DNA of 38,886 bases from a virus. The stretch spans positions 1 to 38,886 of IMG/VR virus record IMGVR_UViG_3300013132_000103; one strand, given 5' to 3'. This document shows, piece by piece, positions 541-38,884 of the stretch (position 1 is its first letter; each line of letters starts with the position of its first letter). The translations under genes and the position numbers were made by a program. Below the pieces are notes generated by a model, which saw nothing but the letters and a program-made list of their open reading frames with translations, ran no database searches and was not told the DNA's origin.

Positions 541-549
541 ATATATTGA

Positions 550-5549: not shown

Positions 5550-5556
5550 TAATAAA

Positions 5557-7486: not shown

Positions 7487-7489
7487 TTT

Positions 7490-10314: not shown

Positions 10315-10324
10315 ATATAAATAT

Positions 10325-13927: not shown

Positions 13928-13947
13928 AAATTAATAAATAGTAAAAT
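13919..13947 (+). promoter_or_regulatory. Sigma70-like promoter for the annealing-protein gene, leaderless mRNA
   Basis: Perfect TTGACA at 13919-13924, overlapping the end of the glycosyltransferase gene, 17-bp spacer, TAAAAT at 13942-13947. The ATG at 13954 begins exactly 7 nt after the -10 box, the usual distance to +1, so the transcript should start on the A of the initiation codon. Confidence 0.75.
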
Positions 13948-13953
13948 TAAACA

Positions 13954-14742: not shown

Positions 14743-15536
14743 AATAAAGTATAATAATTAAAATTTACTCTTCCTTCTTCTATTGTTGAAAAATTAGAAG
14801 TTTCTTCAGATTTAGTTAAGTCTTTAAAAGTAAAAGAATAAAGATTACTACCATTGACGTAGCTTTTTAGCTTAAGAGTGAGATCTTGTATATCTGGTTT
14901 ATTGTATATGCTTGTTACTCCACTAAAAGTATATTCATTTATATTCGCAAACAAACTTAAGCTTATTTTTAGTGGAAGCATAGAAATAAATTCGTCTGGG
15001 AGTATTTGGCCTATTTTATAAGAAGGTCTTTTTTCGCATTCAATCGTTAAGTTTAATTTGTTTACTAACGCTTTATCTACAACTGAGGAATCAAAATAAA
15101 TATCTACATAATTATTATTATATGGAAGAATATTAAAATTAGCAGGTTTAAGAATTTCTAGGCCTGTCTCTGAATAAACTTCAGCGAATATTTTTAAATT
15201 CGCTTTAGCACTTACTACAGAATCTATTTCATAATTTAAAGAATAATTATTTAAGAAACCAGTTTTAAATATAAAATATTTATCATTATAATTGAATTTT
15301 CCAGAAAATGGAGTATTACCTGTAAAATTTAATAATATATCATTTGCCAAAGGTATATATTCTATGCCTAGATCTGCCTCAATAAATTTAGAATTTATGT
15401 AATTTTTTGAATTATTCTCGATAAGCAAAGATGGCTCTACAGAGCTTTCCCATTTTAAATCTAAAGCTTGTATTCCAGAAAGTTTTATATTATTTATATA
15501 AAATTCTTGGTTTTCTTTTGAAGAATAAAAGTCCAT
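14739..15536 (-). CDS. Tail-type structural protein (hypothetical)
   Basis: 265 residues, minus strand. The sequence is almost all beta with many Asn, Ser, Tyr and Leu, no Cys-rich motifs and no signal peptide. Segments such as YINNIKLSGIQALDLKW, IEADLGIEYIPLANDILLNFTG and FLNNYSLNYEIDSVVSAKANLKIFAE recall the repeated strands of phage tail-tube or distal-tail proteins. The function is inferred from this and from its late-type promoter; I cannot name a family. It is a lone gene, divergent from the M homologue and convergent with the annealing-protein gene. Its ATG lies exactly 8 nt from a GTGTAAT box, with no Shine-Dalgarno sequence, so its mRNA should be leaderless. Confidence 0.72.
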   Translation of the reverse strand: MDFYSSKENQEFYINNIKLSGIQALDLKWESSVEPSLLIENNSKNYINSKFIEADLGIEYIPLANDILLNFTGNTPFSGKFNYNDKYFIFKTGFLNNYSLNYEIDSVVSAKANLKIFAEVYSETGLEILKPANFNILPYNNNYVDIYFDSSVVDKALVNKLNLTIECEKRPSYKIGQILPDEFISMLPLKISLSLFANINEYTFSGVTSIYNKPDIQDLTLKLKSYVNGSNLYSFTFKDLTKSEETSNFSTIEEGRVNFNYYTLF

Positions 15537-15544
15537 TTAATATA

Positions 15545-15551
15545 ATTACAC
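15545..15551 (-). promoter_or_regulatory. Late promoter box GTGTAAT, leaderless type, for the gene at 15536
   Basis: The box reads GTGTAAT on the minus strand, 8 nt before the ATG. If TGTAAT is the -10 hexamer, transcription starts within one or two bases of the initiation codon. No -35 consensus is seen. The box faces away from the identical box at 15562-15568. Confidence 0.65.
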
Positions 15552-15561
15552 GATTTTTTCT

Positions 15562-15568
15562 GTGTAAT
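15562..15568 (+). promoter_or_regulatory. Late promoter box GTGTAAT for the tail-tip operon (M-L-K-I-J)
   Basis: GTGTAAT lies 26 nt before the ATG at 15595, and a Shine-Dalgarno-like AAGGA lies between. The same 26-nt distance is found before the tape measure gene. Together with the opposite box at 15545-15551 it forms an inverted repeat, AATTACAC/GTGTAATT, with a 10-nt centre: two back-to-back promoters. Confidence 0.65.
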
Positions 15569-15594
15569 TTATGCTAAGGTAAAAGGATAAAGCT

Positions 15595-16131
15595 ATGCCA
15601 AGTATATATGACACAGTACCGGTCTGGGTTGCGGGCACATCATACTCAAAATATGATATTGTTAAAGGTTCAGATAATAATTTTTATTATTCATTGATAG
15701 ATAGTAACCAAGCGAACAACCCGACTAGCACCGCAAACCTGCAATTAAGATGGGATGGATATAGATTATTAAATAATAAACTTCAACCCAATTTCTTTTG
15801 GCAAGCATCTTATAATTCTTCTTTAAAATACGACCCAAGGGTTAAGAGATTAAGATTTGGTAATGGATATGAACAAAGGATATCTGATGCTCTAAATTTT
15901 AATTTAATTAAAATTGATTTACAATTCGCTTTAAGAACGGAAAAAGAAACAGTGTCCATATTGCATTTTTTAAACGAAATGGGCGGCAAACGATCCTTTG
16001 TATACAATACGCCAACAATATTATCAAAAACTCTGCATACAACAAGATTCATATGTCCCGAATGGGATATTAATTATAGCTCTTTTAATAATTATTCAAT
16101 AAAATGCTCATTTGAAGAGGTTTCTGCTTAA
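15595..16131 (+). CDS. Minor tail protein, lambda M-like
   Basis: 178 residues. The C-terminal 110 residues carry the features of the phage minor tail protein M family: VKRLRFGNGYEQRISDALN, a KIDLQFALRTEKETVSILHFL segment, FVYNTPT, and TTRFICPEWDINYSSFNNYSIKCSFEEV. The N-terminal 60 residues (VPVWVAGTSYSKYDIVKGSDNNFYYS) look like a small carbohydrate-binding-type module (W..GTSY..GDIV..) fused in front. Protein M lies in the tail tip between the tube and the L-J hub. First gene of the plus-strand late operon, with an AAGGA ribosome site; the next gene starts on its stop (TAATG). Confidence 0.85.
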   Translation: MPSIYDTVPVWVAGTSYSKYDIVKGSDNNFYYSLIDSNQANNPTSTANLQLRWDGYRLLNNKLQPNFFWQASYNSSLKYDPRVKRLRFGNGYEQRISDALNFNLIKIDLQFALRTEKETVSILHFLNEMGGKRSFVYNTPTILSKTLHTTRFICPEWDINYSSFNNYSIKCSFEEVSA

Positions 16132-18074
16132 TGCCTACAAAATCAGACATTTATTTTCAAATTACAGGAGGATATTCTAATTTAAATAGAGAATTATCTA
16201 GTTTAGAACCGTCTCAATTAGTCTATCTTTACGAAATAGACTTAAAACCAATCCATCCTGTTTCAGCACTAAATATAGTACCAAATCAACCAATCAAAGA
16301 TGGAATATTAAGAATATATAATGATTATAATCTATTTAATATTGTAAATGATAGCGATGGAAGAGTAATATGGGAAGGTAATTACTATTATCCTTTCCCA
16401 ATAAATGCAGAAGGATTTGATTTAACGACCCTTGGCGTAAGGCCAACCCCAAAACTTTATATAGCTAATTCTAGCCCAGATGGTACCTATAATTCTTTCT
16501 ATAAGTACCTGCGCATGCAAATACAATCTTTAGGGGATATTGCGGGATGCAAATTAACTAGAATTAAAACTTTTTTAAAATATTTACATGGTAATAATTT
16601 TAACGGAAATGTCAATCCATACACAAATGATCCATCAATATTTGAAATTGAGTTACCAAAAGACATCTACTATATTGATAGAAAAAGCGTAGAAGATTCT
16701 GTTCATCTAGAATTTAACCTTGTATCATCCCTAGATATAGAAAATTTATCTTTACCATCTAGGACAATCCTTGCGAAAAGATGCCCGTTTATTTATCGAG
16801 GAGAAGGTTGTTTATATGAATATAATAAAAGGATTACTCAGATACATAGCGGAGTATATGGAGAGGTTGTTAACTCTCCAATAAATATAACTCTTCCTCT
16901 AGAAGCCCCGCCTGTTGCTACAGAAAATGAAGAATCATTTTTTGATACAATTTTTGCTAATAATCAATCTGCAAGATTAAGATTTACTGGAATTAGTTAT
17001 TTTAGAGCAGGGATAAGCACAAATTTTCCAGGATGGTCATTTACAAATTATACTCTTGGTGGGGCGGGGACAGCCGCCGCAGCAGCAACAATATTAAATG
17101 ATAATTCAACTTCTACAGTTGGAATAACGTCTCAGGCTGCTACGGCAATAGCATCTTTGTCTTTAACAACTGGGGCAGAAATAACAAGGGTAGTCTTATC
17201 ATCAAACGCAACAATAAGAAATAATTATCAATTAGAATATTCTCAAGATGGAACAAATTGGTATAATGTACCAGATATAAGCGGGCTTAATTCTAATTGG
17301 GTCCTGTCTGGTGTCGCGGCTGGAACATATACTTTTAATTTTCCTTCTAAAGGCATAAATAGATTCTGGAGACTTTCTACATTAAACAGTTTTGCTGGAA
17401 CTCAAATAACTGAACTTAACTTTAGCGGCCAATATCGAATCGCGGATAGCGGATTATGGACCACTGGATCCCAATATAGAGCTGGGGATTTCACTTTTTT
17501 TGAAAAAGATAAAGTAAAATTTTATTATGTTTGTAACAAAGACCACACTTCATCTTTAGATATAAATCTTTTCAATAAAGGTCATTGGCAAGCAGATGCT
17601 TGCACAAAAAGCATAAGTTCTTGTAGAGAGAGATGGCTAAAAAACCCAGCCTTAAGACCAGTGATATGGCCTATACCAAGAAATGGCTGGACTTGGGATC
17701 GCGCAGTTTATCACTATGATGCTTATTGGGGCGCATATGAAAGCGATGCGCCAGGAGTTAATCCCGCATACCAACCATTTACGACTTCTTTTACTGGATT
17801 TTCTGGTCAAGAATTTATATATAATCATAAAGGATATCACCCAAATTCATATGGGCCAAAGTATAGAATTGGCAAGTTTTTTGTTGATCCAGATCACGGT
17901 TATCAATCTTTTGAAAATCCACAAGCGGCTAGGCTTGACCAATGGCCAAGAAGACCAGATGTAATCGATCCGTTGGCAAGTTTTGCATGCGGGATACCCA
18001 AAGATGCAAGCGGAAATTATTTAAATGGTTTTTTGCCATTTGGCGGATTTCCTGGAACAAATCAAAAGGCATAA
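16131..18074 (+). CDS. Minor tail protein, lambda L-like, with large insertions including a discoidin-like domain
   Basis: 647 residues against 232 in lambda L. Residues 1-240 match the L core up to the first cysteine pair in AKRCPFIYRGEGCLYEY (about 217-230). The second cysteine pair occurs only at about 490-500 (DACTKSISSCRERW), and the closing GFLPFGGFPG motif is at the C-terminus. In lambda L these cysteines lie close together and bind an Fe-S cluster. The first insert, about residues 260-435, contains ATILNDNS, LSLTTGAEITRVVL, YQLEYSQDGTNWYNVP and FWRLSTLNSFAGTQITELNFSG, the pattern of an F5/8-type C (discoidin) glycan-binding domain. A second insert of about 125 residues, aromatic and His-rich, lies between SCRERW and the last motif. 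The domains could help bind the host surface. Confidence 0.85.
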   Translation: MPTKSDIYFQITGGYSNLNRELSSLEPSQLVYLYEIDLKPIHPVSALNIVPNQPIKDGILRIYNDYNLFNIVNDSDGRVIWEGNYYYPFPINAEGFDLTTLGVRPTPKLYIANSSPDGTYNSFYKYLRMQIQSLGDIAGCKLTRIKTFLKYLHGNNFNGNVNPYTNDPSIFEIELPKDIYYIDRKSVEDSVHLEFNLVSSLDIENLSLPSRTILAKRCPFIYRGEGCLYEYNKRITQIHSGVYGEVVNSPINITLPLEAPPVATENEESFFDTIFANNQSARLRFTGISYFRAGISTNFPGWSFTNYTLGGAGTAAAAATILNDNSTSTVGITSQAATAIASLSLTTGAEITRVVLSSNATIRNNYQLEYSQDGTNWYNVPDISGLNSNWVLSGVAAGTYTFNFPSKGINRFWRLSTLNSFAGTQITELNFSGQYRIADSGLWTTGSQYRAGDFTFFEKDKVKFYYVCNKDHTSSLDINLFNKGHWQADACTKSISSCRERWLKNPALRPVIWPIPRNGWTWDRAVYHYDAYWGAYESDAPGVNPAYQPFTTSFTGFSGQEFIYNHKGYHPNSYGPKYRIGKFFVDPDHGYQSFENPQAARLDQWPRRPDVIDPLASFACGIPKDASGNYLNGFLPFGGFPGTNQKA

Positions 18075-18077
18075 TAA

Positions 18078-18803
18078 ATGATTACAAATAAAATAAAAAG
18101 AAAAATTATTAAAAATGCAAAAAATTCATTTCCATGTGAATGCTGCGGGTTTATAGTTACTAAAAACAATAAAGTATTTACGATAGATTGTGAAAATATC
18201 GCAAAGGATAAAGAAAATGATTTTATGATTTCAGCAAAAGATTTTTTATATGCAAAAAATAATTCAGATGAAATATTGTTTTTGTATCATAATCATATAG
18301 ATGCAAGAGAATTTAGTATTTTAGATAAACAAACAGCAGACTCATTGAGAATAAATTTATTGCTTTATATTAATGCCTTAGATTGTTTTAAGATATATTA
18401 CTATAATGAATTTAGTAAATTAAATTATCTATTTGAAGAATATAATAGAAATGAAAATAACTGCTTTCATTTAATAAAAAATTATTTTAACAAAGAACTA
18501 AATCTAAAATTAAATATCGATGAAAGACTATTCAAAGATAAAGATATAACTTCTATAGAAGTAGAAGACATAATAAATAGATATCATGCAACTAATAATC
18601 TTTTAAAACTAAAAAAAGATACAAATTTAAAAATTAATGACATTTTAATACTAAAAAATAAAATATCTACGCATCTAGCAGTATACATAGGAAATAATAA
18701 AATTATACACCAGCCTTTAAATAGAATTTCAATTATTGAAGATTTATCAAAAGACTATCAAGAAGATATACAAGGAGTACTAAGGAGTAAAAAGTTTATA
18801 TGA
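18078..18803 (+). CDS. Tail tip protein, lambda K-like: JAMM and NlpC/P60 domains
   Basis: 241 residues. The N-terminal domain is of the Mov34/JAMM type: Glu in PCECCGF and LFLYHNHIDAREFSILD, which holds HxH, Ser and Asp; the spacing from HxH to Ser is 6 rather than the usual 7 residues. The C-terminal domain is NlpC/P60: catalytic Cys129 in NNCFHLIKNYF and His199 in STHLAVYIGNNKIIHQP. Lambda K has the same two domains in the same order and is needed for tail-tip assembly; the NlpC/P60 part may cut peptidoglycan during DNA entry. It starts 3 nt after gene L and overlaps gene I by ATGA. Confidence 0.87.
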   Translation: MITNKIKRKIIKNAKNSFPCECCGFIVTKNNKVFTIDCENIAKDKENDFMISAKDFLYAKNNSDEILFLYHNHIDAREFSILDKQTADSLRINLLLYINALDCFKIYYYNEFSKLNYLFEEYNRNENNCFHLIKNYFNKELNLKLNIDERLFKDKDITSIEVEDIINRYHATNNLLKLKKDTNLKINDILILKNKISTHLAVYIGNNKIIHQPLNRISIIEDLSKDYQEDIQGVLRSKKFI

Positions 18804-19606
18804 CAAAAATTAATTTACATGGTAAATTAGGGGAAGCTTTTGGAGAAAATTGGGAGCTAGAGGTCGCTAGTGTTGCAGAAGGATTGCGCGCTTTAGAAGC
18901 AAATACCGGCAAATTTAGAAAATGGATTATTGATAATCTTGAAAATTTTGAATACGAAATAATGATTAACCATAAACCTTTAATGTACAATAAAGGTGAA
19001 AGTATAACCGTGGAAAACTATAGACATTCTGACCTATGCGTAGAATTTAAAGACAAACTTAAAACAATAGATATTGTTCCTGTTGTTGCTGGTTCAAGGA
19101 GGGCTTTGAGGAGTTTTGGAAGAATTGCGCGGGCGGCATCGCCCCTACTTGGAGGCGCTGCGATGTTAGCAGGGAGTTTTATGGCTCCAAAAGCAGCAGG
19201 ATTTCTAATACCCGCAGCCCTATCTTTAATATCTGGCGGCGTAACAGCGATGCTTTCTAAACCTCCGCCAAGTATACCTTATTCAGATCAAGCATTTGTA
19301 GCACAACAAGCGACAGCAAATAAACAATCTGCCATTGGCGGTGCTGGCGGAAATTCTGGACCAATATCTTATCTATTTAGTGGCCCAACAAATACCGTAG
19401 GAGAAGGCGGCCCAGTCCCAGTCGGATATGGAGAATTAATGGTGGGTGGACATAATATTGCGACAAGCTATGCGATAATATATTGCGCAAATTATAGAGA
19501 CATGGATGCAACCTCGCTTTTAGAAACTCAAAAAGGCTTTCAATTCTTATTTAATGAGCAATGTATGCTAATTAATCAAAAGCCCGTAAATACGAATATA
19601 TCATAA
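18800..19606 (+). CDS. Tail assembly protein, lambda I-like
   Basis: 268 residues. The N-terminus (MTKINLHGKLGEAFGENWELEVASVAEGLRALEA.., written here in part) is a ubiquitin-like beta-grasp segment typical of the I family. The middle holds a glycine/alanine-rich hydrophobic stretch of about 45 residues (ASPLLGGAAMLAGSFMAPK and following). Near the C-terminus, FSGPTNTVGEGGPVPVGYGELMVGG matches the conserved I-family end. Lambda I acts with K and L in building the tail tip onto J and is thought not to be abundant in the virion. The protein is longer than lambda I (223 aa) by a C-terminal extension of about 40 residues. Confidence 0.84.
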   Translation: MTKINLHGKLGEAFGENWELEVASVAEGLRALEANTGKFRKWIIDNLENFEYEIMINHKPLMYNKGESITVENYRHSDLCVEFKDKLKTIDIVPVVAGSRRALRSFGRIARAASPLLGGAAMLAGSFMAPKAAGFLIPAALSLISGGVTAMLSKPPPSIPYSDQAFVAQQATANKQSAIGGAGGNSGPISYLFSGPTNTVGEGGPVPVGYGELMVGGHNIATSYAIIYCANYRDMDATSLLETQKGFQFLFNEQCMLINQKPVNTNIS

Positions 19607-19610
19607 TATT

Positions 19611-22600
19611 ATGGCTAATAATCCTAATAAAGTTGCAGAAGGGCTAATCTTTTTAGATTATACATCTAATTTAGGTAATTCTTGGGGAGGAATGAAGTTC
19701 CCAGAAAGTATAGCAGCAGATTATTGGGGAGGAACGCACAGTTTGTACTTTAGCGGAAGAGATTTTGGCGGAAATAACATTGATCCACGTACCATGCAAG
19801 CGGGTGGTGGAGCCAACGGCCCGAGAGGTGTAAGCGGTACTTTTGAACCAGTAAGCCCAATCTATGGGTTGGATGGATCCCCTTCAAGAATTTATAATGA
19901 TCAAGATTTACTAAGGTATATTATAAGATCTAATTCTGGAGGTTATTATAGTATGTTTGGAAACACATTCCCGCTAGATGGATTGATAAATACTGCTTTG
20001 GAAAGCGGATTTACAAGAACAAGGCCCTTTAGCTACACTTATCTTGGCCACGACGCAAATACTCCAAAGTTACGTACAAAATTTGGCTTAGGCAAGGAAA
20101 ATAGAAGAACCCCAGGATCTTTAACCACAGTCCCATTTCCAGCAAGTAATTCAAATATGACTATTTCCTATATTAATAACTCTATAACTTCAGTGACAAC
20201 AATAGGAATTTTAGACTTAATTAGTGAGGGTCCTATAGAAGGCCTTGTGACGGGACAAACTTTATTCAATTTATCTGGTAAACAAGCAGGGGATATTGGA
20301 TACACAAGCTTTGCAATGCAAGGATTTTTTCCAACAGGTTTATCTGTAACAAATGCATTAATCTCAACAAATGCGCCAGAAACAAGATCAATATTTTGGA
20401 ATGATATTCCACTAGCAAATGATCGGGGATTTCTAAATTTTCAGTTTGTGAGTTATAAATTTAATAATGGAGAGCCAAACCTTCATACAATTCATAATCC
20501 CAAAATATCTCTTTATGAGGATCGATATCATTACGATGGATATCAAGTAGATCAGTTTAAATATCCAATACCAATTCAAACTTCAAGACAAATAAGCGAA
20601 AGATTACGAGGAGCAAGCGTTTATGAAGGCAGTACTTCTGGAGTATATTTCCCAGTAAGATATTCAATTTATAATACAGATATAGAATCCATCAAAGTTA
20701 CATTTAGAATAGATAGTTTATTTTGGAATCCAATTACAGGATCGAACGCGGGGGAAACAGAAACCGATACAATGAACATAATGGTACATTTATATCGTTT
20801 ATTTAAAGATGGAACGACATCTTATGCTTCTATGGATACAGCGGCCCATGACGATCCTTACATGTTTGCCTCCGACTCAATCCCAATCCAAGGTAAAATT
20901 CAATCTCCAATGACGATGAGTTGGACCGCTACATTAAGGTCACATGCAGACAACGGTTTATTCTTTGAAATACAACCAAATCAAATTGGGTGGTTATTAA
21001 AAATTGAAAAACCAACGCAAGAGATGAATGGATCATATGAAAAAAATACAATTTTTATTGATAGTATTACTCAAACTTATTCTGATAGATTTACATTTCC
21101 TAATATCGCTTCTGTATGGTCAACTTACGATGCCAGATACTTTTCTTCTGTTCCAGATAGAAATTATAGAACCAAGCTATTAAAAGTTAAAGTTCCAATA
21201 AACTACGATCCTATTACTAAAAATTATTCTGGAAATTGGGATGGGAGATTTAAACTTGCTTGGACAGATAACCCTGCTTGGTGTTATTATGATTTAATTA
21301 CAAATAATAGATACGGATTAGGAAAGTATATTGATTCTGCGCTAGTAGATAAATGGACACTATATGAAGTATCTAGATATTGTGATACCCTTGTTCCTGA
21401 TGGCTTGGGGGGACTAGAGCCAAGATTTACATGCAACATCCTTATTAATTCAAAGGAAGAAGCGCATAAAGTATTAGATGATATGGCCTCAATATTTAAT
21501 GGTATTACATATTATTCTGCAGGACAGATTTTCGTTTCCCAAGATGCGCCCAAAGAACCCATATATATATTTAATAACAGCAATGTTTTAAACGGAGAAT
21601 TTACATATTCAGACAGTTCAAAAAGATTGAGAAGATCTGTCGCGCTAGTTAGATATAATGATTCCACGAATAATTTTAAGCCTGCGCTAGAGTACGTAGA
21701 AGATAGAGACAGTTTGCAAAAATTTGGAGTAAGAGAAACAGAAATAACCGCCTTTGGATGCACGAGAGCCAATCAAGCAAGAAGACTTGGCAAATGGTTT
21801 TTGAGAAGCGAAAATCTTGAGACAGAAACCGTAGAATTTAAAGCAGGCTTAGAAGGATCATTTTTAAGACCTGGAGATATAATAGAAATTTTTGATGAAA
21901 ATAGAAGAAATAATATTTACGCGGGAAGAACTTTAAACTTTAGTAGCGGGTCTGCGACTTTAGATCTACCAAGTGGACAATTGTATCAATTAACTGGCGC
22001 TCAGGCAGGGAATACCATTAAGATATCTTTTTTAAACCCAACTTATACATTAGAGAGAGGAACAGATCTTGGAGACTTGTATATTACAGGGTTTGATGCA
22101 AATTCTTCTGGAATATCAGGCCTTAATTATTCATTCTTCAGAAAATCACAGATCGATTCTTTACATATTAATAATCCAAGAAACTTCTTTACAACTGGAA
22201 GTGGAAATTTTAGAGATTTTGTAAGGGTAAATTTCCCCAGTGGCATTCCTTCTATAGGCAAGCTTTTCCCAGAAAATACAGTATGGTCTATAGAAGTAAC
22301 AGGATATAATTTCCCATTAAATGCTACATCAAAAATTAATAACAGCCCAGCAAATTTAGTATATCCAGGCTATTATCTTGAAGCAACTCTAGATAAACCC
22401 AAGCCATATCGAATAGTTAACATTCAAGAAGTAGAAAAAAATTCATTTTCTATTACAGCCTTAGAATTTGTAAGACAAAAATACAGCGATATTGAAACCG
22501 GTTCGGCGCTTGTGACTGTTAATAATAAAGTGCCTGTCCCCGCTGCTCCAGAATTATTTTGCGGTATTATATATAGAGATCTTCAAACAGGCGATCCAGC

Positions 22601-23009
22601 ATTTCTAAATAGCGCAGGAGAGATCTATACGTCCGCACAACCTAACGGAATAAATTCCATATGGTATTGGGCAAAACCACCAGCAAATTCTGGTGATGTT
22701 AGCAGATATGTATTTTATAGAAAAAGCGGATCAACTTTTCAAAATGATCCTCCATATCAATCTGAACTTTTTGCTACACATACAAATGAAACCATAGGAA
22801 GGTCTGGGGTAAGTCTTGACCCAATAGATGGAGTATATGTTTATTTACCATATTACTTTACTCCACCTTCTACAGGATCTTACTATCTTAGAGCTTATGC
22901 AGAAAATGTTTTAGGCGAAAGATCACCTTTTTCAGAAAAAGTCATACACTTTACTCAACAAGGTTCAATATCACAAGATACATTAGAGGATTTTAATGTA
23001 TTACAATGA
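19611..23009 (+). CDS. Tail tip attachment/host specificity protein, lambda J-like
   Basis: 1132 residues. The first 200 residues are an unusual Gly/Ser/Tyr/Asn-rich extension. The typical J sequence starts at TTIGILDLISEGPIEGLV and continues through the hub domains, including PAWCYYDLITNNRYGLGKYID, WTLYEVSRYCDTLVPDGLGG and a VALVRYND..NNFKPALEYVED block. The C-terminal 150 residues contain a fibronectin type III-like unit (PVPAAPELFC ... YYLRAYAENVLGERSPFSEKV). J forms the central tail hub and fibre and contacts the host receptor; the end of such proteins normally decides host range. No Shine-Dalgarno sequence is obvious before its ATG, which lies only 4 nt after gene I. It overlaps the next gene by ATGA. 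Confidence 0.92.
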   Translation: MANNPNKVAEGLIFLDYTSNLGNSWGGMKFPESIAADYWGGTHSLYFSGRDFGGNNIDPRTMQAGGGANGPRGVSGTFEPVSPIYGLDGSPSRIYNDQDLLRYIIRSNSGGYYSMFGNTFPLDGLINTALESGFTRTRPFSYTYLGHDANTPKLRTKFGLGKENRRTPGSLTTVPFPASNSNMTISYINNSITSVTTIGILDLISEGPIEGLVTGQTLFNLSGKQAGDIGYTSFAMQGFFPTGLSVTNALISTNAPETRSIFWNDIPLANDRGFLNFQFVSYKFNNGEPNLHTIHNPKISLYEDRYHYDGYQVDQFKYPIPIQTSRQISERLRGASVYEGSTSGVYFPVRYSIYNTDIESIKVTFRIDSLFWNPITGSNAGETETDTMNIMVHLYRLFKDGTTSYASMDTAAHDDPYMFASDSIPIQGKIQSPMTMSWTATLRSHADNGLFFEIQPNQIGWLLKIEKPTQEMNGSYEKNTIFIDSITQTYSDRFTFPNIASVWSTYDARYFSSVPDRNYRTKLLKVKVPINYDPITKNYSGNWDGRFKLAWTDNPAWCYYDLITNNRYGLGKYIDSALVDKWTLYEVSRYCDTLVPDGLGGLEPRFTCNILINSKEEAHKVLDDMASIFNGITYYSAGQIFVSQDAPKEPIYIFNNSNVLNGEFTYSDSSKRLRRSVALVRYNDSTNNFKPALEYVEDRDSLQKFGVRETEITAFGCTRANQARRLGKWFLRSENLETETVEFKAGLEGSFLRPGDIIEIFDENRRNNIYAGRTLNFSSGSATLDLPSGQLYQLTGAQAGNTIKISFLNPTYTLERGTDLGDLYITGFDANSSGISGLNYSFFRKSQIDSLHINNPRNFFTTGSGNFRDFVRVNFPSGIPSIGKLFPENTVWSIEVTGYNFPLNATSKINNSPANLVYPGYYLEATLDKPKPYRIVNIQEVEKNSFSITALEFVRQKYSDIETGSALVTVNNKVPVPAAPELFCGIIYRDLQTGDPAFLNSAGEIYTSAQPNGINSIWYWAKPPANSGDVSRYVFYRKSGSTFQNDPPYQSELFATHTNETIGRSGVSLDPIDGVYVYLPYYFTPPSTGSYYLRAYAENVLGERSPFSEKVIHFTQQGSISQDTLEDFNVLQ

Positions 23010-24472: not shown

Positions 24473-24474
24473 TT
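24463..24474. other. 12-bp perfect palindrome across two convergent stop codons
   Basis: AATTATATAATT spans the TAA of the plus-strand gene (24470-24472) and part of the TAA of the minus-strand tape measure gene (24473-24475). It has no loop and no GC, so it is unlikely to be a strong terminator; none is otherwise seen at this convergence. Confidence 0.5.
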
Positions 24475-32392: not shown

Positions 32393-32408
32393 GACTAATC
32401 CTTACTCC

Positions 32409-32439
32409 TTATATAAATATTACACAAATATTTATATAA
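32409..32439. repeat. 13-bp perfect inverted repeat over the tape measure promoter
   Basis: Arms TTATATAAATATT (32409-32421) and AATATTTATATAA (32427-32439) with a 5-nt centre ACACA. The centre is part of the minus-strand GTGTAAT box, so the symmetry covers the core promoter. Candidate operator or activator site; AT-rich chance is possible. Confidence 0.6.
32419..32425 (-). promoter_or_regulatory. Late promoter box GTGTAAT for the tape measure gene
   Basis: GTGTAAT on the minus strand, 26 nt before the ATG at 32392, with AAGGAG and a second AAGGA in between. The spacing is identical to that of the M operon box. The tape measure thus has its own promoter in addition to any read-through from upstream genes. 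Confidence 0.62.
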
Positions 32440-32463
32440 TATAAGTCCTAAAATATAATAGGA

Positions 32464-33465
32464 TTAGTTCCCGTGAAGTTTAATTAAGTCTTCCATGCTT
32501 AATTTCCCACCGCTTTTATCTGCAATTTGATCTAAGGATAATACATTTTCATCGGCGCCAATTTTAGCCAAATCTTCCTTTTTCGCCCCTACGATAGAAG
32601 TAGCAACCATGCCATCCTTCTTTTTTATATTGCTTTTTTCTATCATTTCCTCTGCATTTTTACTTGACTCCAACCATTCTATTAATTTATCTGGATCTTG
32701 ATAATAGGTATTGGGCGGCGAATGTTTTGAGTTAGAAACGATATCCTTGAAATACTTTGCGAAGCCAAATATTTCCATTTGATAAAAGCTTAACTCGACA
32801 ATGGGTCTCCCATATAAAAAATATGGATTATCATTACTAATATTAAATAAATTTAAATAAAAAGAAGATAAAGCGATTCTCTTAAGCCTTTTTTGATGAA
32901 ATTTTTCATTGATCTCATTGTAAATTATAATTAATCTTGAAATATCAATATTTTCAAGGTCTTCAAATTGCTCTATAGAAAAGAAGCGGTCTTTTAAATA
33001 CTCATCTTTAAATATTGAAATAAACATATAGTATTCATTAATCTTTTTGTTCGCATAGTCTTCGACTGTAAACCCAATGAGCTCTTTTAATTCTATTTGT
33101 AAAGAAGACAAATCATCCTCATATTTTTCAATTTCTTTATTAATATATTCTATGTCTGTTTTTTTGAATAATTTAGATTTTGTATTCTTAAGGCCATGAA
33201 GCATCTCTTGTATTTTTTTAATCTTTTCATCTCTTTCTTTTGACCATAAGTTTTCTTGAATTAAATATTCTTTTTTTTCCTCTTTTGTTGGCAATCCTCG
33301 TTCTTTTGCCTTAGACTCAAAATCAATTTTTTTATAATCTATATTCCCAGAATCAATAACATTATTATGTTTTATATATAAAAATTCAGAATTGTATTTA
33401 GCTTTAGAAAAACCTTTTAATATGTCAATAAAAGCTAGTTTTAACTGCTCTTGAGAGTTGTCCAA
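32464..33465 (-). CDS. Hypothetical protein in the tail assembly chaperone position (T-like slot)
   Basis: 333 residues from a TTG start at 33465; the next Met is at residue 88, so no ATG start fits. The protein is largely helical and highly charged, with a predicted coiled-coil around residues 60-130 (KERGLPTKEEKKEYLIQ, then KIKKIQEMLHGLK and KEIEKYEDDLSSLQIELKEL). The C-terminal end is Lys/Asp-rich. It lies directly upstream of the tape measure gene, where lambda has G/GT. It is in the same frame as the preceding gene, separated only by TAA-ATT-ACT, so re-initiation or stop read-through could link them. A chaperone role is inferred from position only. Confidence 0.7.
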   Translation of the reverse strand: MDNSQEQLKLAFIDILKGFSKAKYNSEFLYIKHNNVIDSGNIDYKKIDFESKAKERGLPTKEEKKEYLIQENLWSKERDEKIKKIQEMLHGLKNTKSKLFKKTDIEYINKEIEKYEDDLSSLQIELKELIGFTVEDYANKKINEYYMFISIFKDEYLKDRFFSIEQFEDLENIDISRLIIIYNEINEKFHQKRLKRIALSSFYLNLFNISNDNPYFLYGRPIVELSFYQMEIFGFAKYFKDIVSNSKHSPPNTYYQDPDKLIEWLESSKNAEEMIEKSNIKKKDGMVATSIVGAKKEDLAKIGADENVLSLDQIADKSGGKLSMEDLIKLHGN

Positions 33466-33471
33466 AGTAAT

Positions 33472-34272
33472 TTACTCTACTTTCTGCGCTTCCTCGGTTT
33501 TCTCCTCTTTTTTATCTTCCTCTATTGCTTCAGAAGAAATCATATTTAAAAGTTTTTCAAATTCTTCTTGGCTTGAAGCGCGGCCGGTATACCAAAAGCT
33601 TATTAAATAGATGAATTTAGCTAATGCCTTTTTTTCCCAAGAGTCTTCTTTACCTTCTTCTATAAAGTCATAAGAATCAAGTTTCTCTTCAAAAGTTTTT
33701 CCATTAAAAATATCTACATAAATTGAATCTTTATTTTGAACTAACGATAAAATAAGAACCCACCACATAATAGTTTTATTCCTAGCTCTATTTTCTGCAG
33801 TTTGATCAAATAAGCTAGCTTGAGCAAACTCATAGTCTTGAAGTTTCTCTTTGGTAGAAGAGATCCCATTTATTAACTCTCTATACTCCCTTTTTTCTTC
33901 CTCGGATCGCTTAGCTTCATCTTTTAAAGATGCTTTTTGAAATTTATGTTGTAAGTCAAATAATGCAACGTAAAGTTTTGTGTATTCTTCCTTATCCGTT
34001 TCACTGAATATGCCCCCATCATTGCTAAATCTTTTAGCAAGTAACGCTCGGGTTAATAGACCAGCTTTAATGCCTTCCGACAATTTAACTCCATAAAATA
34101 ACTCTGCTTCGTCAAATAACCCTCTAGTTGGCTTTCTAATAGCTAGCTTGACGGGGATAATTTTTTTTACTTTTTTTGTAGTTTTAACTTCTTCGCCTTT
34201 TTCATTTTTTGAAACATCTACTTCGTCTACCTCTTCTTCTTTATCAATTGTAAATTCAAACATTATTTTCAT
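33472..34272 (-). CDS. Hypothetical protein in the tail assembly chaperone position (G-like slot)
   Basis: 266 residues; the ATG has GGAG 7 nt upstream and overlaps the previous stop. After an acidic N-terminus, VKLAIRKPTRGLFDEAELFYGVKLSEGIKAGLLTRALLAKRF (read in parts) is a helical block like those in tail chaperones and tube-interacting proteins. Further helical, charged segments follow, and the last 20 residues are strongly acidic (EDKKEEKTEEAQKVE). It lies between the tube and tape measure genes, as lambda G does. No slippery heptamer in the right register was found near its end; instead the next gene continues in the same frame after one TAA. Confidence 0.7.
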   Translation of the reverse strand: MKIMFEFTIDKEEEVDEVDVSKNEKGEEVKTTKKVKKIIPVKLAIRKPTRGLFDEAELFYGVKLSEGIKAGLLTRALLAKRFSNDGGIFSETDKEEYTKLYVALFDLQHKFQKASLKDEAKRSEEEKREYRELINGISSTKEKLQDYEFAQASLFDQTAENRARNKTIMWWVLILSLVQNKDSIYVDIFNGKTFEEKLDSYDFIEEGKEDSWEKKALAKFIYLISFWYTGRASSQEEFEKLLNMISSEAIEEDKKEEKTEEAQKVE

Positions 34273-34544
34273 AGGTTTTCTCCATTATTTTCTATAAGTT
34301 CTTCTAAGTAATTTTTTATCTTGCCATAATAAACTACTCCGCCCAAAGTTTTAATAAACTTATGTCTTTTTTCTTGATCCCAATTTATATAATTTTTTAT
34401 AAAATTAGGATTTTTAAAAATAGTGACGCTCGGGTTACTAATCCCAAAATTTTCTTTAAGATTTTTTTGTATGCTTTGAATAGCAAGATTACCTTCAATA
34501 ATTTGATCTACGCTAAAGTTGTAATTTATTTTTTTTATTTTCAT
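34269..34544 (-). CDS. Small hypothetical protein of the tail chaperone operon
   Basis: 91 residues, basic, with Asn and Lys abundant. A helix around QIIEGNLAIQSIQKNLKENFG and a second around EKRHKFIKTLGGVVYYGKIKNYLEELI are likely. No family recognised. It overlaps its neighbours on both sides by 4 nt (ATGA-type), showing coupled translation in the operon that runs from 34765 toward the tape measure. Probably a small assembly factor, by position only. Confidence 0.65.
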   Translation of the reverse strand: MKIKKINYNFSVDQIIEGNLAIQSIQKNLKENFGISNPSVTIFKNPNFIKNYINWDQEKRHKFIKTLGGVVYYGKIKNYLEELIENNGENL

Positions 34545-34765
34545 TTTAATAAAATATTTAATTTAGTGAAACTTTCTTCTATTTCTCTTACGGCATCATT
34601 CGCGTTATCAAGAACTCTTTTTCGTATTTTTTGATAAGTTTCATTATTTATATTATAACCAGAATCAGATAAATCTTCAAGAATAAAAAAGAAGTTTTTA
34701 TATATATTTGTAATTTTTCTCTTTATCTGAAAAAGAGTAATATCTTTTATAGGATCATTTTCCAT
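34541..34765 (-). CDS. Small helical hypothetical protein, first gene after the tail tube
   Basis: 74 residues, mostly helical and charged (IKDITLFQIKRKITNIYKNFFFILEDL, KRVLDNANDAVREIEESF, read in parts). No family recognised. An AAAGG about 9 nt before the ATG serves as ribosome site, and the leader starts at the GTGTAAT box at 34804-34810. It begins the operon that leads through the chaperone-slot genes. Its position resembles that of small tail assembly factors in other siphoviruses. Confidence 0.65.
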   Translation of the reverse strand: MENDPIKDITLFQIKRKITNIYKNFFFILEDLSDSGYNINNETYQKIRKRVLDNANDAVREIEESFTKLNILLK

Positions 34766-34803
34766 AATCTTTTACCTTTATTTAAACCTTTAACCTACTA
34801 TCT

Positions 34804-34810
34804 ATTACAC
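34804..34810 (-). promoter_or_regulatory. Late promoter box GTGTAAT restarting transcription after the tail tube terminator
   Basis: GTGTAAT on the minus strand, 38 nt before the ATG at 34765 and one base beyond the T-run of the terminator at 34812-34845. The terminator/promoter tandem separates tube expression from chaperone and tape measure expression. Confidence 0.62.
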
Positions 34811-34811
34811 C

Positions 34812-34845
34812 AAAAAATAACCCCCGCAAAAGCGAGGGTTATTTT
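34812..34845 (-). terminator. Rho-independent terminator after the tail tube gene
   Basis: GC-rich hairpin AACCCCCGC-AAAA-GCGAGGGTT with one C-A mismatch, extended by A/T pairs on both sides, followed on the minus strand by a run of six T (34812-34817). It lies 24 nt beyond the tube stop codon. It is the only strong GC hairpin I found in the window. The extended A/T pairs might also give weaker termination on the plus strand. Confidence 0.88.
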
Positions 34846-34869
34846 AATATTTAACTATTTAATTATTTA

Positions 34870-36120
34870 TTAAGCTCTACCGCTGATAAATAATCCGTTG
34901 TCTAGGTCTTGTGGACCACCAACTTGGGAACTGAAGGTCAAACTTACAGTCTTGTTAGCGCCGATATCGGAACTAAATTCTTGACTATCAAGCTTTGCAC
35001 CTTTGAGTTTGAATTGGGCAACTGTTTTTGTAGAATCAGCTGGATCTTTGATTGTGATAGTTGGGTTGAACTTAGCAGAATCATCGCCAACTGTTACAGC
35101 AAGAGTTCCAGTTTTGAGATCTGTCATTTGAGCATCAACAGTTAGAGTTACTGTTAATGGGAAGTCGATCTCTCTAGCAAATGCGAACTTATTTCCAAGC
35201 CTTTGAATTGGTGTACGGCTAAGATCAAAACTCAATGTATAGTTTTGAATGTTCATTGTGTCTATGTCTGCACCGCCAGCGTTTGTATTGGATAGGTCTA
35301 GAGTAATATCGCCTGGTCTAAGAGCACTAATTCCACTAACATCAGATACGGCTGTATTTGCAACAGCTTGTGGTAGTTGGTAGAAATTATCTAGTGCCGC
35401 ACCATCTACTGGATTTACTGCTGGTACTTTATTTCCACTAATTCCCTTTTGGAAATTCATGTTTAAACCTTCTACATTTACGGTCACTGTTGGGAAATTA
35501 CCAACAGAGCCTTCAGTAGAATAAGAGGTTAAGAATGCGTTACCAATTCCGATGACGCCATTATTAGCGGCTGTTGTATCAGTATTGTTAACTGCGTCTG
35601 CGCCTTCGGCTACTGTTCTAATGAAGTAGTTTCTTTCGTCTTCGATTTTATTTAAGATTCCAGAAATTGCAGAAACTTCAGTTGAGGAACCTGAAGTAGA
35701 GATTGTAAAACCTAAACCACTTTCGTTAGCAAGATTAGCTAACAAGTAGCTAAAGTCAAGGGAAACTGTTGGGTTAGTTAAAATAACGCGATCAATAGCG
35801 GCCAATTGACCGAATTGATTAACGTCTGTACGATCAATATTAAAACTGTAATTTGCAGTTTGAACTCTTTGTAGCTGATCGATGCTGTTAACTACGCCAC
35901 TATTAAATGTGGCTTCTGGTACATTTAACCATCCAGTAAATCCAGCTAAACCAGTTAGAATATTATAGTTCGAAGTTGGTAATCCAGCACCATCACTAAA
36001 TCCTGCTGGTAAAGTTTGTGAAGTAGCTTGTCCAGTGCTATATGTAAAATGAAAGCCTGTGGCGGGAGCAGGACCAGCGTAAAGTGCTTCAGATTGATAA
36101 ATTATTCTATTTCTTGCCAT
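34870..36120 (-). CDS. Major tail protein (tail tube)
   Basis: 416 residues. The sequence is beta-rich with many Ala, Gly, Thr, Val and Asn and few Lys, unlike most proteins here. The layout fits a tube protein: IIYQSEALYAGPAPATGF at the start, a YSFNIDRTDVNQFGQLAAIDRVILTNPTVSLDFSY block (read in parts), IQNYTLSFDLSRTPIQRLGNKFAFAREIDFPLTVTLTVDAQM in the same way, and a C-terminal KTVSLTFSSQVGGPQDLDNGLFISG. A lone promoter box, a CGGAG ribosome site, a strong terminator and codon use that looks less AT-biased than its neighbours agree with very high expression. Hexamers of this protein should stack to form the tail. Assigned by composition and gene order, before the chaperone slot and tape measure. 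Confidence 0.82.
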   Translation of the reverse strand: MARNRIIYQSEALYAGPAPATGFHFTYSTGQATSQTLPAGFSDGAGLPTSNYNILTGLAGFTGWLNVPEATFNSGVVNSIDQLQRVQTANYSFNIDRTDVNQFGQLAAIDRVILTNPTVSLDFSYLLANLANESGLGFTISTSGSSTEVSAISGILNKIEDERNYFIRTVAEGADAVNNTDTTAANNGVIGIGNAFLTSYSTEGSVGNFPTVTVNVEGLNMNFQKGISGNKVPAVNPVDGAALDNFYQLPQAVANTAVSDVSGISALRPGDITLDLSNTNAGGADIDTMNIQNYTLSFDLSRTPIQRLGNKFAFAREIDFPLTVTLTVDAQMTDLKTGTLAVTVGDDSAKFNPTITIKDPADSTKTVAQFKLKGAKLDSQEFSSDIGANKTVSLTFSSQVGGPQDLDNGLFISGRA

Positions 36121-36143
36121 ATTATTGTTCTCCGTTTATTGAT

Positions 36144-36150
36144 ATTACAC
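36144..36150 (-). promoter_or_regulatory. Late promoter box GTGTAAT for the tail tube gene
   Basis: GTGTAAT on the minus strand, 23 nt before the ATG at 36120; CGGAG lies about 11 nt before that ATG. AT-rich sequence without a -35 consensus lies upstream. Confidence 0.65.
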
Positions 36151-36177
36151 CTTATTTTAATGTATTTTCTTCTTTTT

Positions 36178-37050
36178 TTAAGCTTGTCTAGGATATCTAT
36201 TTTGTATTAATTCAAAGTCAACAAAAGCTGAATATACATTTCTATTTAAACTATTAGTTGCGTTCATTAATCTAGCGTCAGTCTTTGTTACAGTTACATC
36301 ATTAATATATGCATAATCAGAATCTGATACTTTATCTTTTGTATAATCTAAGTAATCAAAGCATTTTCCAGTTAAACTTACAGAACCTAAAGAGTTAAAA
36401 GGCATTTCATTTGGATATATTAGTGGGACTAATTGTCTTACTGTATCTCTCATTATACTCGTTACTGCGTCTAAGTTGTATACGCTATCTGCTAATATAA
36501 TAGCCCTAATATTTCCTATTGTTTGATCTAATCCACCAAAAGCTAATGGTTTATTTTTACCACCTTGATATTTTAAATATATAACAGGATATGTTTCTGC
36601 ACCTACTGGTAGACCAGTTGGATTTTGATATGTTCTGGGATTTATTTGATAAGCTGTTTCAAATAGTATATTTTCTTCTGGTTTGCTAGTTAAATATATA
36701 TTAAAATCTTTTACAGCATAGTGGCCGCTTAATGATGTTTCTGGATTAAATATCTGCTGACTAAAATATAACTGACCTTCTTGAGCATTGATTCCGCTTA
36801 ATCCACTTTGGCCAACTTTAATAAAATTATTATTTAAATATACTCCACTTATAATTTTTGCTCCGCTAATTGAGCAATCTATTACCATTTGTTTAAATGG
36901 TGCGCCATATGTATAGTATCCATAATACATACTATTAACTGGATAAAATGAACTTCCGTGGTTTGTATAGGCTTGACCTTTAGTTAGTATTTTATTATCC
37001 AGCCATAATAAAACATTTGTCATTAATATATTATCAAATTGTGGTGTCAT
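36178..37050 (-). CDS. Hypothetical tail protein, tail-terminator position
   Basis: 290 residues, Tyr/Asn/Gly-rich and mostly beta, with a long helical segment near LDAVTSIMRDTVRQLVPLIYP. The C-terminal region YINDVTVTKTDARLMNATNSLNRNVYSAFVDFELIQNRYP resembles the closing strands of tail-terminator or neck proteins. It lies directly upstream of the tube gene, where lambda has U and related phages have their tail terminator, so I infer a role at the tail-neck junction. No named family is recognised. The start overlaps the previous stop (ATGA). Confidence 0.65.
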   Translation of the reverse strand: MTPQFDNILMTNVLLWLDNKILTKGQAYTNHGSSFYPVNSMYYGYYTYGAPFKQMVIDCSISGAKIISGVYLNNNFIKVGQSGLSGINAQEGQLYFSQQIFNPETSLSGHYAVKDFNIYLTSKPEENILFETAYQINPRTYQNPTGLPVGAETYPVIYLKYQGGKNKPLAFGGLDQTIGNIRAIILADSVYNLDAVTSIMRDTVRQLVPLIYPNEMPFNSLGSVSLTGKCFDYLDYTKDKVSDSDYAYINDVTVTKTDARLMNATNSLNRNVYSAFVDFELIQNRYPRQA

Positions 37051-37637
37051 TTTAATCCTTTTACAAAATTAAAGTATATTTCTGAAATATATTTTACAGG
37101 CCTAAAAGCTAAACTTCTAACTTTATTTTTAGATTGAATGCCTCTCTTAGATCTGCTTTGAGGAAATAATAAACCATAAACATAATATCCAAATCCAGAT
37201 ATTCCTTCTTCAACGCCTTTAACCCAACTTCTGCTTCCTTCAAATGGAAGTGGTGTGGCGGATCTTATCTCTTCTGGGGATGGAGTATAAACTTCGTACT
37301 CTATTTCAAAATTTTTCTTGTTAAATTTTGGTTTTTCACCAAGATATGTGTTTTCTTTTATAATCGAAGTTAGTTCGTCTATTGGTTGGCGCGTGCTTTC
37401 AAATCCAATAAAAGCAAATAGATTTTCTTTACCATTTAATGTTGAGCTAATATTTTCACCATCTGGTCCCTGCCTTAATTCTTTTGAGACAGGATGACTT
37501 TCTACTTCGTTTATATATTTTCTTAAATTTTTATTAAGAGTATTTTGCGCCAGACTTAAAGCTCTTTTTTTTAGAGCTGATTCTACAGCTGGAGAAATTT
37601 CTTCTCTAATTTTTTCTAGATTTATCTTTCTAGCCAT
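37047..37637 (-). CDS. Hypothetical neck/tail completion protein
   Basis: 196 residues, basic. It begins with a helical region (INLEKIREEISPAVESALKKRALSL, read in part) followed by NTLNKNLRKYINEVESHPVS. It then has beta segments such as NLFAFIGFES, NFEIEYEVYTP and WVKGVEEGISGFGYYVYGL. The layout of an N-terminal helix plus a small beta fold is like HK97 gp10/lambda Z-type proteins, and the position between connector genes and the tail-terminator slot agrees. Family not certain. Overlaps both neighbours (TAATG upstream, ATGA downstream), so translation is coupled. Confidence 0.62.
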   Translation of the reverse strand: MARKINLEKIREEISPAVESALKKRALSLAQNTLNKNLRKYINEVESHPVSKELRQGPDGENISSTLNGKENLFAFIGFESTRQPIDELTSIIKENTYLGEKPKFNKKNFEIEYEVYTPSPEEIRSATPLPFEGSRSWVKGVEEGISGFGYYVYGLLFPQSRSKRGIQSKNKVRSLAFRPVKYISEIYFNFVKGLK

Positions 37638-38077
37638 TACTTTGTTTGCTCCAATCCATAAACATAATAGGTATTATTAAGATATTTTCTCACTACATCT
37701 TCTGTTACTATATTCCAAGTCTTACCATCAAATTCTAATTTTATAGTTTTACCATTAGCAATAAAATCTCTGGCATCTTGTTTTACTTTTAATGTCACGT
37801 CCCCGCGGGCGATAATTAATTTTAAATCAGGATCAACAGATTCTATGTTTCTAACATTATTATAATAAATTCTTCCTTTATAAACCCCTGTTACTGGAAC
37901 ATAGGTATAGTTTACAGAATCAGAGCTAGAACCATAACCATATAATGGTGCATTTTCTATTTGTTGTAGGACCTGTATTGGTTCTTTATGTACTATAAAA
38001 TCTCTAGAAAAATATGTGAAGAAATCATCATATTGTTTTGAAAAACTTGCTGCTACTTCTGGTTTTATAAAACTCAT
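37637..38077 (-). CDS. Hypothetical head-tail connector/stopper protein
   Basis: 146 residues. The N-terminus FIKPEVAASFSKQYDDFFTYFSRDFIVHKEP is helical. The rest is a small beta-barrel-like sequence with TYVPVTGVYKGRIYY, DPDLKLIIARGDVTLKVKQDARDFI (read in part) and GKTWNIVTEDVVRKYL. Small beta-barrel proteins in this place are typical head-tail stoppers (gpFII/gp16-like). Function is inferred from fold impression and order: connector, this gene, neck, terminator, tube. It starts 2 nt after the preceding stop. Confidence 0.62.
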   Translation of the reverse strand: MSFIKPEVAASFSKQYDDFFTYFSRDFIVHKEPIQVLQQIENAPLYGYGSSSDSVNYTYVPVTGVYKGRIYYNNVRNIESVDPDLKLIIARGDVTLKVKQDARDFIANGKTIKLEFDGKTWNIVTEDVVRKYLNNTYYVYGLEQTK

Positions 38078-38079
38078 GA

Positions 38080-38595
38080 TTAGGATGCATTGTCAATGTT
38101 TCTTAGTCTATATAGCGCATTTGTATAAGTAGGATTATAATAACCCTCAATTACATCATCGCCAGCAACTTGAAGTGGAGTTGTATTTGCTGCTACATAA
38201 TTTGTAACAAAATCTTGTAACTCGTCATATTCTTGTTTTCTTACTGTTATATAATTTCTTAGAACTTCATTTGTATTTATTTTTTGCACAGACCCAATAT
38301 CATCTTTGATTGTTACATAATCGTTAGCTGCAGAGCTAGCTGTGCTTTTAATTTTTATATCAAGATAATATATTCCATACATTTTTTTGAATATATATTT
38401 TTCCTCATCATTTAAATTAGGAGAAATTTCATAATTTTCAGTATTCTTAACTATAAAAGATGTATTTAAAAGGTTATTTAAACCGCCTATGTTTCTTCTT
38501 ACCCAAGCAGATATTGCTGCTATGCTAAAATCAGATGGCTCGCCAAGTTCTTCATATATCTCTTGAGCAATAGATGTAACAGTATTAATGATCAT
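38080..38595 (-). CDS. Probable head-tail connector (adaptor) protein
   Basis: 171 residues. The N-terminal half is helical, with VTSIAQEIYEELGEPSDFSIAAISAWVRRNIGGLNNLL (read in parts), the pattern of gp6/gp15-type adaptor proteins that bind the portal. A long helix follows at ENYEISPNLNDEEKYIFKKMYGIYYLDIKI in the same region, and the C-terminus has RKQEYDELQDFVTNYVA. No signature motif proves the family. Its ATG lies exactly 8 nt from a GTGTAAT box, without a Shine-Dalgarno sequence, so it is predicted to be translated from a leaderless late mRNA that continues into the neck genes. Confidence 0.65.
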   Translation of the reverse strand: MIINTVTSIAQEIYEELGEPSDFSIAAISAWVRRNIGGLNNLLNTSFIVKNTENYEISPNLNDEEKYIFKKMYGIYYLDIKIKSTASSAANDYVTIKDDIGSVQKINTNEVLRNYITVRKQEYDELQDFVTNYVAANTTPLQVAGDDVIEGYYNPTYTNALYRLRNIDNAS

Positions 38596-38603
38596 ATATT
38601 AAA

Positions 38604-38610
38604 ATTACAC
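38604..38610 (-). promoter_or_regulatory. Late promoter box GTGTAAT, leaderless type, for the connector/neck operon
   Basis: GTGTAAT on the minus strand with exactly 8 nt to the ATG at 38595, as at 15545-15551. No ribosome binding site fits between the predicted start point and the ATG. Confidence 0.65.
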
Positions 38611-38627
38611 TGTTTTAAAGAGTAAAA

Positions 38628-38867
38628 TTAATATAACTTATTTTTGATATAATTTACAGAGTCTATAAAATTATTAATTTTCAAGTCAGAAATGCGTCTT
38701 TCATCTATTCTGTTAACTAGTGTTATATCACCATATGGATCAAGATAAAAACTAAGATGATAAGCATTTTCTGCGTAAACTATTGTAATATCGTCTTTAA
38801 CATAAAAAGTTGGATTATTTTCAATAAATCCTAAGCTAATAAGATGATTTTTAATATGCTCGAACAT
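38628..38867 (-). CDS. Small hypothetical protein
   Basis: 79 residues, beginning MFEHIKNHLISLGF, a short helix, then beta strands (TFYVKDDITIVYAENAYHLSFYLDPYGDITLV) and a C-terminal helix (INNFIDSVNYIKNKLY). No family recognised; no transmembrane segment or signal peptide. It has its own late-type promoter with a leaderless start 8 nt after GTGTATAAT, and it lies upstream of the connector operon. Confidence 0.65.
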   Translation of the reverse strand: MFEHIKNHLISLGFIENNPTFYVKDDITIVYAENAYHLSFYLDPYGDITLVNRIDERRISDLKINNFIDSVNYIKNKLY

Positions 38868-38875
38868 ATACCTAT

Positions 38876-38884
38876 ATTATACAC
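38876..38884 (-). promoter_or_regulatory. Late promoter variant GTGTATAAT, leaderless type
   Basis: GTGTATAAT on the minus strand, 8 nt before the ATG at 38867. It holds a perfect TATAAT at the same distance as TGTAAT in the other leaderless late promoters. The region of any -35 lies outside the window. Confidence 0.6.

Follow-up and report, generated by a model that had tools for sequence, protein, structure and literature searches.

GTGTAAT as a predicted late promoter element, and a candidate phage sigma factor to read it, in uncultivated tailed phages

The middle and late promoters read by gp36 of phage phiEco32, a phage sigma factor acting with the host core RNA polymerase, contain a single conserved element, tAATGTAtA, with no -35 element and with transcription starting 6-8 bp downstream; gp36 is devoid of region 4 (PMC8948821). 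Late genes of Salmonella phage 7-11 are likewise controlled by a phage sigma factor, SaPh711_gp47, which contains region 4 and whose promoters are bipartite, GTAAtg-16-aCTA (PMC8948821). The late promoters of phage T4 contain a -10-like element without -35 conservation and are read by a sigma factor with a region-2 domain (PMC7892883); the T4 box, TATAAATA, is used together with gp55, gp33 and gp45. The present analysis concerns the heptamer GTGTAAT in the viral record IMGVR_UViG_3300013132_000103, a genome fragment of 38,886 bp and ~32% GC that is referred to as the window at its full length. The best explanation, and in our judgement a likely one, is that GTGTAAT is a -10-type late promoter element read by a phage sigma factor, henceforth referred to as sigmaB, on the host core RNA polymerase.

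The predicted design resembles that of phiEco32 gp36 in its one conserved element, the lack of a -35 element, a start site at a similar distance downstream and the use of the host core RNA polymerase by a phage sigma. The two boxes share TGTA. The consensus differs (tAATGTAtA there, GTGTAAT here), gp36 lacks region 4 whereas sigmaB has a region-4-like end and a second sigma family, sigmaA, has region 4, and predicted leaderless or nearly leaderless starts dominate here, unlike in the phiEco32 system. The first-pass annotation had likened the box to T4-type late promoters; the likeness extends to the architecture of a single -10-like element, no -35 and a phage sigma, but neither the box nor the sigma is that of T4. 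GTGTAAT stands in place of TATAAATA, and an hhalign comparison of the sigmaB profile with T4 gp55 (as a single sequence) gave a probability of 0.2 and no detectable similarity. A phage sigma with region 4 is common to phage 7-11 and the present relatives, while the promoter is bipartite in 7-11 and a single element here. Searching the literature for phage promoters of the sequence GTGTAAT returned nothing relevant. A tblastn search of sigmaA and sigmaB against a GenBank phage collection returned no phiEco32-type phage, no profile comparison with gp36 having been made, and no isolate phage in that collection carries sigmaB or the major tail protein of these phages.

GTGTAAT boxes upstream of late genes

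An exhaustive count of both strands located six GTGTAAT copies, at the positions and in the orientations listed by the first-pass annotation, and no further copy in 38,886 bp. The motif is missing from the replication half, as had been noticed, with 0 copies in positions 1-15,544. The total number of copies is unremarkable for the base composition (6 against 3.8 expected, with six or more in 16 of 100 shuffles), and count enrichment was rejected as evidence by itself because it is not significant. The evidence lies in the placement of the copies. Noncoding DNA in the window totals 514 bases and holds all six boxes, each pointing at the next gene. Upstream, gene-oriented noncoding DNA amounts to 469 of 77,760 strand positions, and the occurrence of 6/6 boxes within it corresponds to a binomial p of ~5e-14, the best value of all 7-mers in the window. 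The motif is thus not as frequent inside genes as before them; all six copies are noncoding, upstream and oriented.

Relatives were collected from viral contigs using the J-like protein, the major-tail protein and DnaE as queries, which yielded 142 loci; the records examined are mostly fragments, and a long terminal repeat (357 bp) was present only in G031 among those checked. A box was counted for an orthologue if GTGTAAT lay within 80 nt of the gene, and the resulting counts, given below with each feature, represent related sequences and not independent events.

15545-15551, minus strand: GTGTAAT box, predicted to serve gene 14739-15536 as a late promoter of the -10 type; GTGTAAT 8 nt upstream in 24/25 orthologues
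15562-15568, plus strand: GTGTAAT box, predicted to serve the tail operon 15595-24472 as a late promoter; GTGTAAT in 5/21 orthologues, the others listed having GTGTAAA at the same place
32419-32425, minus strand: GTGTAAT box of the tape-measure gene 24473-32392; 42/47 orthologues
34804-34810, minus strand: GTGTAAT box of the operon starting with gene 34541-34765; 23/34 orthologues, most others having GTGTAAA
34811-34845, minus strand: intrinsic terminator-like hairpin of 14 pairs (-20.3 kcal/mol) with a T-run, separating two late transcripts; a similar hairpin is found there in relatives
36144-36150, minus strand: GTGTAAT box of gene 34870-36120; 35/50 orthologues
38604-38610, minus strand: GTGTAAT box of the operon starting with gene 38080-38595, predicted to be leaderless or nearly so; 36/40 orthologues, most at exactly 7 nt
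38876-38884, minus strand: variant GTGTATAAT before gene 38628-38867; GTGTAAT in 2/3 orthologues

The box at 34804-34810 lies directly behind the terminator hairpin. Gene 34870-36120 is, from its position, probably the major tail protein gene; one relative additionally encodes a paralogue, also major-tail-like, which has a separate GTGTAAW box (G018:25505-26710). The variant GTGTATAAT is present at 38876-38884 on the minus strand as had been claimed, but a second copy at 18702-18710, also minus, lies inside a plus-strand gene, and the variant alone is weak evidence for that reason. Plain GTGTAAT is usual at its place in orthologues of gene 38628-38867 (2/3, for example G003 6019-6025), and the variant is probably a degenerate copy of the box.

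The box precedes 0/61 dnaB and 0/73 dnaE orthologues, and nearly all other genes also have none. Across 11 relatives, 141 of 223 GTGTAAT copies were located in oriented upstream DNA against 3.3 expected, while the reversed-word control gave 5 of 127. When upstream 7-mers were ranked de novo, GTGTAAT was first in 14 of 15 records, the window included, and in the remaining record (G048) it was second to the overlapping word AGTGTAA. It likewise ranked first upstream in two sets of sigmaB loci, one of 110 with a mean GC of 0.31 (313/433 copies upstream) and one of 59 with a mean GC of 0.39 (75/129). As a positive control, the same procedure applied to a T4 segment did not return GTGTAAT but recovered the established late promoter of that phage, as ATAAATA, TTATAAA and TATAAAT; on a Cellulophaga phage it returned neither GTGTAAT nor the T4 late motif.

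These data support a second promoter class, as had been proposed, with the box at late genes and sigma70-type promoters at the early operons of relatives. The accompanying claim that the two classes divide exactly by function was slightly too strict: the box stands before late and not replication genes, but in relatives it also precedes nrdB, endonuclease VII-like and metallophosphoesterase genes. A box and a sigma70-type promoter were found upstream of the same gene once among 12 records using a strict pattern. The boxed genes are termed late on the basis of their functions, from which we infer the timing.

Box geometry and predicted transcription starts

The geometry of the box was analysed using 181 GTGTAAT sites from ten records. 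The absence of a -35 consensus, noted in the first-pass annotation, was upheld, as positions -36 to -10 relative to the box all carry 0.13 bits or less. Neither constant nor variable spacing revealed a -35 or any further upstream element; the search returned only A/T-rich sequence and an inverted partner box, TTACAC. The partner was observed in relatives upstream of 16/189 sites against 2.7 expected, and this recurrence suggests that late promoters are repeatedly arranged as divergent pairs. In the window, the boxes at 15545-15551 and 15562-15568 form such a divergent pair, 10 bp apart, as an inverted repeat.

Could GTGTAAT instead be a host promoter element, either a sigma70 extended -10 or the target of a host alternative sigma, switched on late by a phage activator? 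Single-element promoters without a -35 can depend on an activator. One A of the -10 element is the most critical base in sigma70 recognition, and GTGTAAT has a G at that position. The box is moreover unchanged across records of 28-40% GC, and the phages encode sigma factors of their own. We consider this explanation improbable.

Of the 181 sites, 40 lie 7 nt and 26 lie 8 nt from the start codon, the two most frequent distances, and a single site is below 5 nt; genes of the relatives were called with a simple open reading frame (ORF) picker, and some start codons are uncertain. Of 99 genes that begin no more than 10 nt from the box, one has a Shine-Dalgarno-like site, versus 39 of 68 distant genes (14 nt or more). 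Among 74 distant sites, 51 have an A as the eighth nucleotide downstream of the box. An A-tract and a strong start signal in the first logo were partly family bias and weakened when sites from different genes were used. Taken together, the box fits a -10 element with transcription predicted to start ~8 nt downstream. Since start codons peak 7-8 nt from the box without a Shine-Dalgarno sequence, the box would occupy the -10 position, and a large share of late mRNAs is expected to have no leader. The transcript of gene 14739-15536, for instance, is predicted to begin at ~15537 and to be leaderless or nearly so. All start sites are predictions from sequence, and transcription is inferred to begin at them.

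The same distances bear on whether, rather than a promoter, the box is a signal that acts within late leaders at the level of RNA or translation or, at 15545-15568, a hairpin. The inverted repeat formed by the divergent pair and the closeness of boxes to start codons are compatible with such a signal. The spread of distances from 7 to more than 40 nt, with Shine-Dalgarno-like sites mainly at long distance, is instead what a -10 promoter element would give. Relatives retain GTGTAAT in one arm of the pair and have GTGTAAA in the other, the behaviour expected of two independent promoters, and the window has no Rfam match. We consider an RNA signal very improbable, the least probable of the explanations weighed.

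Two phage sigma families and the probable reader of the box

The expectation of a phage-encoded sigma factor outside the window was borne out in relatives, in which two sigma families were found. A search with region 2 identified sigmaB, a protein of 227 amino acids (aa) composed of region 2, a cysteine-rich insert and a region-4-like C-terminus. Pfam Sigma70_r2 (PF04542) scored above cut-off in most of the sigmaB-bearing records scanned and for the protein of G034, and 19/32 matched a sigma PHROG. The C-terminus is helical in the structural model and includes a conserved helix-turn-helix-like stretch, with no Pfam region-4 match. Every listed PDB fold match of sigmaB is a sigma factor, though weak, and hhalign detected no homology to sigmaA.

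The sigmaB operon encodes, in order, a zinc-ribbon protein, sigmaB, a 364-aa product, an ERCC4 nuclease and TerL, and is followed by a GTGTAAT-headed gene. SigmaB was present in the TerL operon of all 7 TerL-holding records among the 15 examined. Records without sigmaB are also without TerL, and they end short of the sigmaB region. TATAAT was located 5-9 nt before the start codon of the operon in 88/92 and 25/42 loci, while GTGTAA was located there in 1/134. A TATAAT-type promoter is as expected for a gene needed ahead of the late genes. Few matches were found to a strict TTGA[C/T]-17 pattern, which was rejected as the operon's promoter, the conserved part being the TATAAT -10; TTTAGA ~19 nt before TATAAT is a subclade feature only (34/92).

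SigmaB is the best candidate and the likelier reader of GTGTAAT, because it occurs in every record that reaches TerL, is more conserved than sigmaA (58-79% identity to its reference in aligned sets, against 36-74% for sigmaA) and has the TATAAT-type promoter. Several observations weigh against this assignment. Only presence and conservation pair sigmaB with the box, and a second sigma, sigmaA, exists, which is present in 26/49 records. The sigmaB model has low confidence (predicted local distance difference test, pLDDT, 70; best fold match E 0.011), and ~160 of at least 496 sigmaB relatives were examined. Several more distant relatives (among L051-L064) have no box before the major-tail orthologue, and the window fragment itself encodes neither sigma; by extension from the relatives, its own phage would carry sigmaB.

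Upstream of the major-tail orthologue in L055, L056, L060 and L063, a TTTCAC or TTTCAC-like sequence was observed ~16-20 nt before TGTAAA, with no GTGTAAT. This arrangement looks bipartite and might be a target of sigmaA.

SigmaA, a ~200-aa protein identified by a search with Sigma70 region 4, is encoded in the early nrd operon together with nrdA and nrdB. That it reads the box while sigmaB does something else, or that both read it, is unlikely but is the foremost alternative. SigmaA is a clear sigma factor with sigma70-family regions 2 and 4. It matches a sigma PHROG (PHROG_351) in 12/12, its profile has no PDB matches other than sigma factors, and its model (pLDDT 84) folds like sigma32 (E 1.5e-5), sigmaE and others; PF04542 was above cut-off in one member (L145, 25.2 bits) and PF04545 below. 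Its operon is headed by a TTGACT-17-TAnnnT sigma70-type promoter in G003, G016 and G018, and its region 2.4 and region 4 helix are nearly invariant. That conserved region 4 helix, however, predicts reading of a -35, and no -35 element was found; sigmaA diverges fast, whereas the box is invariant. SigmaA was demoted as first-choice reader since the box is present in G034 (15/27 upstream) and G050 (11/17), both of which hold TerL and sigmaB and have no sigmaA by profile, although G050 may be incomplete. SigmaA was also absent near nrdA in G046 and G051, but the neighbourhood is rearranged there and the result is uninformative. Upstream regions that have no promoter of either kind were searched for a third class that sigmaA might read, and none was found. 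G034 (158 kb) additionally encodes an extracytoplasmic function (ECF)-like and an RpoD-like sigma besides sigmaB (ORFs 94114-94740 and 117031-117990).

With sigmaB as the reader, host RNA polymerase and host sigma70 would first transcribe the early operons from TTGAC-17-TAnnnT promoters, and the sigmaB operon, in relatives, would be expressed from its own TATAAT-type -10. SigmaB would then bind host core RNA polymerase and direct it to GTGTAAT, with initiation ~8 nt past the box giving a leaderless mRNA wherever the start codon lies at 7-8 nt. Reading of the box would thereby switch the infection from DNA copying to particle building.

Early promoters, neighbouring genes and implications

The plus-strand genes in 1-14,742 encode replication and metabolism functions (DnaB, ThyX, primase, exonuclease, DNA polymerase III alpha subunit, glycosyltransferase), and the minus-strand block 24,473-38,867 contains the tape measure gene and further genes without a PHROG match. 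Predicted sigma70-type early promoters and the principal late transcription units of the window are as follows.

512-540, plus strand: early promoter TTGACT-17-TATCAT, 9 nt before dnaB (550-2034); sigma70-like promoter in 55/58 orthologues
5521-5549, plus strand: early promoter TTGATT-17-TATACT, 7 nt before gene 5557-6306; 52/66 orthologues
10286-10314, plus strand: early promoter TTGACA-17-TACCAT, 10 nt before gene 10325-10858; 63/66 orthologues
13919-13947, plus strand: early promoter TTGACA-17-TAAAAT, 6 nt before gene 13954-14742; 62/63 orthologues
15595-24472, plus strand: late tail operon, with PHROG matches to lambda-type minor tail proteins, a tail assembly protein and a J-like protein
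24473-32392, minus strand: late gene, tail length tape measure protein of 2639 aa (PHROG matches, E 6.6e-47)

Replication operons of relatives have TTGAC-17-TAnnnT-like promoters with the start codon mostly 6-10 nt past the -10. For sigma70-type promoters, the start codon was 10 nt or less away in 129/148 cases and Shine-Dalgarno-like sites were found in 5, which suggests that the early operons are also mostly leaderless.

The polymerase III alpha subunit is apparently split in the window, as ORFs 5557-6306 and 7701-10289 match PHROG 405 positions 62-286 and 311-1089; the interval between the ORFs holds two small genes and one for an exonuclease subunit. Relatives of dnaE were present in two metagenome-assembled genomes (Flavobacteriaceae and Halobacteriovorax), which may be binning errors. 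A one-piece transfer-messenger RNA (Rfam RF00023) was observed in G018 and G041 (111.8 and 107.5 bits; L297:14722-15112, minus, and L290:17160-17548, plus) and is a possible host clue. One relative encodes a RIIA-like protein (L169:2-2062, minus; PHROG_612, E 6.4e-99).

More broadly, and here our confidence is tentative and falls somewhat short of even, these records may represent a widespread uncultivated clade of large tailed phages with two phage sigmas and mostly leaderless early and late operons, in which the late sigma would represent a new family that combines a cysteine-rich insert and a region-4-like end and yet targets a single -10 element. For hundreds of uncultivated viral contigs, the analysis provides predicted start sites, a candidate sigma factor and a promoter signal that is strongly supported by comparison, so that sequence alone suffices to call late genes and operons. 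If confirmed, the frequent leaderless starts would be an unusual case of numerous transcription units starting at the initiation codon or immediately beside it, and they would inform on the translation machinery of the host.

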